NCBI GenBank assembly: GCA_003220435.1 | Contig: QHSL01000059.1 | Coordinates: 1 to 64,000, forward strand | Direction of reading: 5' to 3' | DNA from: Candidatus Rokuibacteriota bacterium | GTDB lineage: Bacteria > Methylomirabilota > Methylomirabilia > Rokubacteriales > CSP1-6 | Length of the DNA stretch: 64,000 nt | Part shown: piece after piece, positions 11,517 through 61,887 of the stretch | Layout: every line of letters begins with the position of its first letter | How positions within the stretch are numbered: the first letter of the stretch is position 1 | Position numbers and translations under genes: made by a program | The notes under the pieces: generated by a model | The model's input: only the letters and a program-made list of their open reading frames with translations | The model's database searches: none | What the model was told of the DNA's origin: nothing

Positions 11517-11581
11517 GGCCCCCAAGTAAACCGAAGGCCTGAGCCTCCTGCCGTAGTCTGCGGACTACAGGGCCCAGACTT

Positions 11582-11649
11582 GCGGACCGGAGCCGGCTTG
11601 CACCCCTCTCTGGCCACCCTCGGTACAAGCCGGCCTCACGGACCCCGCT
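11582..11649 (-). repeat. Dispersed repeat, degenerate copy
   Basis: This stretch, read on the minus strand, is related to the central part of the element inside the UGSC gene (60798-60864). A 38-base core (11612-11649 against 60798-60835, opposite orientation) differs at only two bases. One inverted end is partly recognisable and the other is missing. It occupies most of the 153-base gap between mlaC and the ArsR gene. Confidence 0.65.
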
Positions 11650-11669
11650 CCAGTGATAGATTTACAAAT

Positions 11670-60013: not shown

Positions 60014-60232
60014 ATGGCGGACAGCTGGGAAATTCTGACGCTGAGAGGGCTGGCGTCGACCGACGAGCGCGCCGAGCGATTCACGGGCACGCTCGTCATC
60101 CATCGCGAGAGCAGCACGGAGCCGGTGGAGTCCGTCTCGGTGTCGATCAAGCGGACGGTGCTCGCCGAGCTCCACGAGAACCTCGGGCGCCTGCTCGCCC
60201 GATCCACCGGGATCAAACGGAGATCCTCATGA
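60014..60232 (+). CDS. Small protein of unknown function preceding the UGSC gene
   Basis: A 72-residue cytosolic protein beginning MADSWEILTLRG, mainly beta with a C-terminal helix and a basic tail (TGIKRRSS). No family is recognised. It is transcribed from the 18-bp bidirectional promoter and its stop overlaps the ATG of the UGSC selenoprotein gene (ATGA), so the two are translated together and probably work together. Confidence 0.65.
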   Translation: MADSWEILTLRGLASTDERAERFTGTLVIHRESSTEPVESVSVSIKRTVLAELHENLGRLLARSTGIKRRSS

Positions 60233-61887
60233 ACAGGATTCGCGTCCTCAGCCCGATCGGAGTCACGAAGGGTGAGACCCTGAGCGTGCCGCCGCTGCCC
60301 GGATCGCTCGCGGGCCGCACGGTCGGCTTCCTCGACAACACGAAAGCGAATTTCGACCAGCTCGCCGATGAGATCGGTGCGTTCCTACGCGCCGAGCACG
60401 GCGTCAAGGCCGTCATTCGGCGTCGCAAAGCCAATGCCTCGACGCCGGCCGCGCCGGAGATCCTGGCCGGTCTGGCGAAGGATTGCGACGTCGTCTTTGC
60501 CGGGTCGGCTGACTGAGGATCGTGCACGTCGTGGAGTCTCCACGACGCCATCGAGCTGGCGAAGGCGGGCACGCCTGCCGGCGTGATCGGGACGACCGCG
60601 TTCCGGGGGCTCGCGGTGAGCGAGCTCGGCGCCCTCGGCATCACCGGCTTGCCCATGGTCGTCGTCGAGCACCCGCTCGGCGGCGAGCGGAGCGAAGGGA
60701 TATCACGCCGCGCCCGCCAGGCCACCGACCAGCTCACCGCACTGCTGAGCTGCGCGGCGCGTGAGATCGGGCGAACGGAGCCGGCAAGCGCTGTTGTAGC
60801 GGGGTCCGTGAGGCCGGCTTCGACCGAGGGTGGCCTGAGAGAGAGTCTTGCCGGCTCCGTTCGCCCGATCTCACCCGAGACGCTCGAGACATTAGATACC
60901 CCCGACGCGGTGCTCGCCGCCTTCTGCGAGCGCGAATGGTGCGACGGGCTGCCAATCGTGCCGCCGACCGAGGAGCGCGTGCGTGCGATGCTGGGCGGCG
61001 CCCCGGCGGAGCGGCCGCTCGGCGCGATGCCTCCGCTCTGGCGCCAGGCGACGCTCGAGAAGCTCGCCGTCAACGCCGTGATGGCCGGCTGCGAGCCTTC
61101 GTATTTTCCCGTGATCGTGGCCGCGGTGCAGGCGATGCTCGATCCCTCGTTCAACCTCTACGGCGTCCAGGCCACGACGCATCCGGTCGCCCCGCTCCTG
61201 ATCGTGCATGGGCCGGCCGCGCTCGAGCTCGGCGTGCACGCCGGCAGCGGTTGCTTCGGCCCGGGCTTTCGCGCGAACGCGACGATCGGCCGGGCGATCC
61301 GCTTGATCATGCTGAACGTCGGCGGCGCCTGGCCCGGCCGCTACGACATGGCCACCCAGGGGAGCCCCGCGAAGTTTTCGTATTGCATCGCGGAACGCGC
61401 GGACGCGCCGTGGGGACCGCTCTACGCCGACAACGTGGTGACCGTGTTCGGCGGCGAGCCGCCGCACAACGTGAACGACCACGTGTCGACGACCGCCGCC
61501 GGGATCCTCGCGACCGTCGCCGACACCGCCGTGTCGCTTGGCTCGAACGTGGGCTGGTATTTCTCCCTGAGCCAGCTGCTCATCGTGCTCGGCCCCGAAC
61601 ACGCGCGGACCATCGCGGGCGACGGCTTCAGCCGGGCCGACGTCCAGCGGTTCGTCTTCGAGCACGCGCGATTGCCGCTGCGGACGCTGAAGCTCGGCGG
61701 GATGTGGGGCATCCAGGACTGGCCGCGCTGGATGCACGCCGTCACCGACGACGACGCGCTCATGCCGCAAGTGCCGTCGCCGGAGGACGTGCTGATCATC
61801 GTCGCGGGAGGTCCCGGCAAGCACTCGGCGGTGGTGCCGAACTGCACCTTCAGCCGGGCCGTGTCGCGCGCGATCCGGCCGCTGTGA
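60229..61887 (+). CDS. UGSC-family selenoprotein with large C-terminal domain, UGA at 60514
   Basis: One 553-codon gene with an in-frame TGA at 60514-60516 read as Sec96. The codons around it spell FAGSAD-U-GSCTSWSLHDAIELA, exactly the U-G-S-C motif that names this family, followed by TPAGVIGTTAFRGLA and LPMVVVEHPLGG. Residues 1-170 are the UGSC domain. About 38 residues (178-216) are encoded by a repeat element. Residues 217-552 are a second domain (DGLPIVPPTEERVRAML, GSGCFGPGFRANATIGRAIRL, GGPGKHS) that I cannot name. A SECIS-type hairpin follows the UGA. The reaction is unknown; the U-x-x-C geometry suggests redox chemistry. Confidence 0.87.
60527..60547 (+). promoter_or_regulatory. Putative bacterial SECIS hairpin (UGSC gene)
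   Basis: CGTCGTGG (60527-60534) pairs perfectly with CCACGACG (60540-60547). The five-base loop is AGUCU (or GUC if A-U closes), with G near its start, and begins 18 bases after the UGA. The loop closely resembles GGUCU of the E. coli fdhF element. Confidence 0.8.
60761..60874 (+). repeat. 114-bp inverted-repeat element inserted in frame in the UGSC gene
   Basis: The first 28 and last 28 bases are perfect reverse complements. The length is a multiple of three and contains no stop in the gene's frame, so it adds 38 residues between the two protein domains. The central part recurs at 11582-11649. No direct target repeat is obvious at the flanks. This is probably a small non-autonomous mobile element of the host lineage. 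Confidence 0.8.

Follow-up and report, generated by a model that had tools for sequence, protein, structure and literature searches.

A small repeat joined to start codons at Rokubacteria gene junctions and present in the linker of a fused UGSC selenoprotein gene

Introduction

The closest described counterparts of the repeat analyzed here are the RPEs of Rickettsia, the MITEs, and the REPs. RPEs are small non-autonomous repeats which lie in frame in unrelated protein genes, where the resulting spacers are tolerated, according to passages of two reports (PMC10969869, PMC2229807); a passage of the first gives their length as about 150 bp. Fusions of MITEs with ORFs are mentioned in a part of PMC2229807. 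For REPs, sections of PMC3733652 describe copies inside uvrA and other genes, place them towards the 3′ end of the gene that precedes them, and state that RAYT loci can be missing.

In the openly licensed PMC literature we found no account of repetitive elements of Rokubacteria or of insertions targeted to ATGA, and an earlier description elsewhere is possible. The DNA studied here is a stretch of 64,000 nt (the window) from the genome of a Candidatus Rokuibacteriota bacterium (contig QHSL01000059.1). The original prediction for this stretch had proposed a mobile-element-like repeat in frame inside a selenoprotein gene, as a parallel to the RPEs in a different lineage. As far as the in-frame, dispersed nature of the repeat is concerned, this parallel, in another phylum, holds.

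The Repeat Family and the Palindrome of the Window Copy

Positions 60761-60874 of the window form a segment of 114 nt which lies in frame in a 552-aa ORF, has exact inverted ends of 28 nt and encodes two copies of AGSVRP, just as had been predicted. When its own genome (5.44 Mb, 147 contigs, completeness 95.5) was searched with this segment, 55 matches were obtained, almost all of them limited to its inner part. Only a core of 74 nt is repeated in the genome, located at 60794..60867 on the minus strand, antisense to the UGSC ORF. A model of the core, R1 (74 positions, from an alignment of 27 copies), scores 91.7 bits at this place (E 1.6e-20, own genome). The second window copy, at 11580..11653 on the plus strand (locus L047), scores 81.7 bits, and its last base together with the following TGA makes GTGA.

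R1 has at least 79 matches in the own genome at E ≤ 0.1, with 150 first-look candidates scored, and 80 R1 matches gave 59 places after neighbours had been merged. In the counts of this study, a cut-off partial match (L301:1-49) and two duplicates (L083, of L296, and the L316 match, of L082) had been dropped beforehand. The repeat is carried by 36 of 57 genomes of the same family and by none of 38 others of the phylum (95 genomes, at most 51 scored in each); all these genomes are MAGs, and their copies are related by descent. Far from being absent elsewhere as DNA, the repeat clearly has dispersed copies in its own genome and in the family, and the genome and phylum searches bear out the view of it as a repeat inserted in frame in a protein gene.

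Some copies are arranged in tandem, with a period of roughly 65, 66 or 99 nt. Such arrays stand in front of genes at L062, L063, L074, L036, and L039, and several sites also have local repeats of the 12-14-mers of the right end (CCCCGCTACAACAAA).

The inverted ends are another matter. The left arm (60761..60788, plus strand, 28 nt) is an exact inverted match to the right arm (60847..60874, plus strand), which overlaps the left end of the minus-strand core; taken slightly wider, 60758-60788 and 60847-60877 form arms of 31 nt with 97% complementarity, 28 nt of them exact. The palindrome folds far better than shuffled sequences, both as RNA (60755-60880, z = -9.1) and as DNA (60761-60874, z = -10.7, with none of 200 shuffles equally good). 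However, among 133 places (59 in the own genome, 24 in the closest relative G003, 50 in other relatives) the window copy is the only one with inverted ends of 28 nt. The runner-up has 16 nt, and all remaining places have less than 11 nt, so that exact inverted matches of at least 11 nt at the ends occur in only two of the 133. The cores of nine copies, including that of the window, fold no better than shuffles (DNA-fold z from -1.56 to +0.73), and the family core is not palindromic. The view of the 28-bp arms as the ends of the element, held by the original prediction, is rejected since no other copy examined has them.

The left arm has the same letters as a plus-oriented copy at its left end. 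This arm is missing from the closest UGSC orthologue, whose protein is 89-92% identical and which has the core in the same orientation and without the palindrome. The window palindrome would then be a later inverted duplication, in which the left 28 nt of the repeat were copied by fold-back or template switch; the identity of the left-arm letters makes a fold-back duplication in the window lineage the simplest reading. A structured RNA or known Rfam family was also considered and rejected: the window segment had no Rfam match at the gathering score, the sub-threshold matches of miRNA type reflect the palindrome only, and there was no covariation. Selection for open frames was rejected as well, because an open frame of 38 codons is unremarkable alone at about 70% GC, where by our own estimate from base composition such lengths are expected.

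Attachment to Start Codons

Two of the 59 own places lie at contig ends and were left out here. In 44 of the other 57, the right flank codes on the strand of the element. A start codon in the coding frame begins at the final base of the repeat, or one base before it, in 27 of these 44 own places, in 15/20 places of G003 and in 17/41 of other relatives. Starts were called mechanically with a simple codon model, the relatives' copies were picked among the best-scoring, and G003 shares sites with G000. The remaining 17 of 44 own places have no start codon adjacent to the right end.

The base that follows the joined start is nearly always A (23/27 in the own genome, 15/15 in G003, 17/17 in the others). 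After ordinary RTG starts preceded by a ribosome-binding motif, A was found in 24% (n = 37) and 34% (n = 351) of cases. With G003 left out, the excess (40/44) has P = 1.3e-20 against the first background and 3.2e-15 against the second. For comparison, where co-directional genes lie tightly together and the repeat is absent, a 4-bp overlap occurs in 5/24 junctions in the window and in 56/168 in G003. The repeat usually directly precedes the start codons where co-directional genes meet, and these are nearly always ATGA or GTGA.

The left end is less regular. A TGA lies near it in 24 of 57 own places against 28 of 171 control windows, but no such enrichment was found in G003 (3/24 against 14/72) or in other relatives (11/50 against 27/150 control windows). 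RTGA flanks both sides in a minority of copies. A target-site duplication is not established, being unsupported outside the own genome. A translationally coupled mini-cistron, running from the left RTGA through a short ORF to the right RTGA, is by our own estimate not above chance and was rejected. At the 37 own junctions with both flanks on the element strand, the first gene ends on the right TGA in seven; a mini-ORF ends on it in three, four have an N-terminal extension, and four show neither, so that these reading-frame classes resemble a chance distribution.

Several single loci deserve mention. L006 and L035 have ATA at the element end and no ATG, GTG or TTG (ATAAAGACC.., ATAATCGCC..), as if the start codon of the downstream gene had decayed or lay upstream. 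In L028 (gatB) and L048 (nuoE) the sole in-frame start is an ATG overlapping the upstream stop, and translation from it would add the repeat to the N-terminus of the protein. Another two copies abut tRNA genes with an exact join to the 3′ CCA, L058:1510-1582 at tRNA-Met and L066:1514-1586 at tRNA-Tyr; the L066 copy occupies the entire gap between the tRNA-Tyr and tRNA-Gly genes.

Occupied and Empty Sites in Relatives

Copies turn over and are absent at orthologous sites in close relatives. At the gatA/gatB junction the repeat is present in G000, G008, G011, and G012, and 13 readable junctions of the family are empty, all of them with ATGA or GTGA. In G003, the closest relative with 94% identity in the query protein, the gatA/gatB junction is empty, and so is the cox-like junction. 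Of eight genomes of the genus in which mutS/mutL could be read, seven have a copy there; G011 has one in the opposite orientation, and G004 has none. The in-frame copy of ubiD is present in G000 and G003; G011 and G013 have shorter or decayed insertions, and six relatives (G002, G005-G008, G012) have ubiD without insertion.

For G003, 19 of 20 pairs were usable, the pair with L072 (71-74% identity) being treated as a paralogue. Seventeen of the 19 own sites with an orthologous G003 stretch are occupied and two are empty, in a sample drawn round G003 copies which overstates sharing. At two of the 17 occupied sites, L042 and L053, the copy in G003 has the opposite orientation.

Fusion of the UGSC Gene and Other In-Frame Copies

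The ORF at 60229..61887 (plus strand, 552 aa with TGA read as Sec) joins a UGSC selenoprotein to a formerly separate downstream gene. Its UGSC domain (PF24696) covers residues 6-173 with E 1.5e-46, and the 114-nt segment follows directly; NCBIfam NF041046 gave 123.3 bits, slightly below its cut-off of 125. The in-frame TGA at 60514..60516 (plus strand, residue 96) lies in the UGSC motif, is read as selenocysteine and is conserved in fused orthologues. The former second gene (60889..61887, plus strand) starts at about ETLDTPDAVLAAFCEREWCDGLP and had no Pfam match; no PDB sequence relative was found for the whole 552-aa protein. Its structure prediction is weak (mean pLDDT 48, 12 rows). All linker residues from 180 to 222 have a predicted pLDDT below 50, which may fit a flexible spacer and proves little.

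When UGSC orthologues with and without the insertion are compared, as the original prediction had suggested, they separate into fused genes with the repeat and two genes without it. Among 29 readable junctions 16 are fused, and 13 have the second gene as a separate ORF, with an ATGA or GTGA stop/start overlap in nine of the 13 pairs. R1 has a match in the linker in 13 of the 16 fused cases and at none of the separate junctions. The idea that the repeat had been placed in a pre-existing linker between two domains does not survive this comparison, since relatives without the repeat have two genes there. In five of these linkers (the window, L121, L126, L127, and L147) the repeat runs antisense to the UGSC ORF; in the other eight (L122, L124, L125, L129, L141, L146, L150, and L151) it has the sense orientation.

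How many events does this distribution require? In the tree of the second domain (25 rows, without L147, which has 159 aa, L145, which has a long branch, and L146, L148, L150, and L151) the fused genes do not form one clade. A single ancestral UGSC fusion is rejected (AU p 5.8e-57), with horizontal gene transfer a possibility. L131, interrupted inside its UGSC part, was counted in the tree only. Under vertical descent, and with gain and loss indistinguishable, the tree needs at least five changes between fused and separate states and at least three changes of orientation. Judged from these sequences, the repeat appears to have made two neighbouring genes into one here, and the fused state to have arisen or reverted at least five times.

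The UGSC gene is not the only one with an open frame through the repeat. By script we found such through-ORFs in six cases in the own genome, to which uvrA is added, in four cases in the G003 stretches and in ten cases in others. Examples are ubiD, UGSC, a fused livM-livG, a D-glutamate cyclase-like protein, and an ABC exporter whose two domains are separated by the repeat. The core lies within proteins in several frames and both orientations, and Pfam domains remain detectable in the through-ORFs that carry it. A further stretch of G003, L302:4236-6764, is a possible read-through from an sdhB-like gene over a copy to sucC, with Fer2/Fer4 and ATP-grasp/CoA-ligase domains in one open frame.

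A Second Repeat with a Similar Layout

The genome G016 has only six R1 matches, and its gatA/gatB junction holds an unrelated repeat. With this repeat as query (L217:1358-1504) we obtained 55 matches in that genome (loci L356-L385). Most of its 25 distinct places open with GATGAG, and 18 have a downstream gene on the same strand. A start codon lies near the right end in 15 of these 18, ten of them ATGA, and in nine of 16 scorable junctions the left RTGA holds the stop of the first gene. The left GATGAG is placed at the stop of the first gene, and the right end comes a few bases before the ATGA of the next. With an unrelated repeat arranged in a similar way, the layout seems to be independent of any one sequence. 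Other GC-rich hairpin-like repeats occur at gatA/gatB or mutS/mutL in further genera of the family (L212, L269, L272, L273, L275).

Origin of the Junction Copies

The window copy is probably one of a non-autonomous, lineage-restricted repeat that inserts at tight co-directional junctions, with its right end, CTACA, joined to RTGA. Such an origin takes in the dispersed copies, their presence or absence at orthologous sites, the adjacency to start codons, the repeated UGSC fusion, and the two orientations in the linker. The RTGA at the right end would be the former overlapping stop/start codon. A trans-acting recombinase or an RNA-templated process favouring RTGA may insert the repeat, which would persist at the junction because it does least harm there and leaves the downstream start intact. 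Where the stop of the first gene is lost and the frame is open through the GC-rich repeat, one ORF with an unstructured linker would result.

It is unlikely that an ordinary repeat without target preference lands anywhere and survives only at operon junctions. Survival alone leaves unexplained the zero distance between right end and start in 27 of 44 own places, nor does it account for the RTGA excess and the exact joins to tRNA 3′ CCA, although dense genomes have most room at junctions and sister genera have other repeats at gatA/gatB and mutS/mutL.

The repeat might also be a cis-regulatory 5′ leader for the downstream gene, acting on initiation or re-initiation, and have spread by duplication because it is useful. 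The fixed spacing to the start codon, the strand bias of the right flank (44/57 own places) and the occupation of several mutS/mutL junctions in the genus speak for such a leader. Still, we consider it quite improbable: none of seven consensus pairs in the copy alignment has a compensatory double change, folds are no better than those of shuffles, and Rfam gave no match at the gathering score. Moreover, copies are gained and lost among close relatives, the genes downstream have unrelated functions, and copies of the core inside proteins use several frames and lie in either orientation.

A GTAG-type REP moved by a since lost RAYT (Y1 tyrosine transposase) is very unlikely and was rejected, because, although the reverse complement of the right end has GTAG or GGAG in 37/58 own, 18/24 G003, and 44/50 other places, and REPs too occur in uvrA and other genes (in a section of PMC3733652), the 74-nt core has no stem-loop, Y1_Tnp (PF01797) was found in none of the 20 genomes with at least ten copies by a search positive in five of 14 control genomes, and REPs, as described in that section, are found close to the upstream ORF's 3′ end with a gap of variable length before the next ORF, the reverse of what is seen here.

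Beyond insertion of this one repeat at RTGA junctions, a wider picture can be offered tentatively, and we hold it to be doubtful. Rokubacteria may have a class of small non-palindromic repeats which a lineage-encoded process steers to RTGA overlaps and tRNA 3′ CCA, and which act as an engine for fused and extended proteins. If so, the layout shared by two unrelated families in sister genera would mean that targeting belongs to a host process and not to the sequence of the repeat.

Small repeats usually lie away from start codons. The Rokubacteria repeat joins them to the base, preferring the tetranucleotide of operon gene overlap. The same gene pairs across species offer a natural series of empty, filled, and fused junctions, in which the early stages of fusion between operon genes are open to direct study, and the UGSC case indicates how a Sec-containing protein gained a second domain. 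The repeat also points to a putative insertion mechanism in a large uncultivated soil phylum.

Comparison with Known Systems

Like the RPEs, the Rokubacteria repeat is small and lies in frame inside protein-coding genes. It differs from them in that its core is about half as long and not palindromic, in the phylum in which it occurs, and in its position, which is mostly at stop/start junctions, where it abuts the start codon and joins neighbouring genes.

With REPs and BIMEs it shares a GTAG/GGAG-like tag at one end, the many copies, the tandem arrays, and the uvrA case. In contrast to the REP stem-loop of 20-40 bp tagged by GTAG, the core has 74 nt and is without a stem-loop. Its carriers are without the Y1 transposase of the REP/RAYT system, and it sits 5′ of the downstream gene.

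MITEs such as ERIC, Correia, RUP, and YAPL resemble it in being small, dispersed, and non-autonomous and in forming ORF fusions. Unlike these, the Rokubacteria repeat has no terminal inverted repeats as a family, has no clear target-site duplication, and prefers RTGA junctions.
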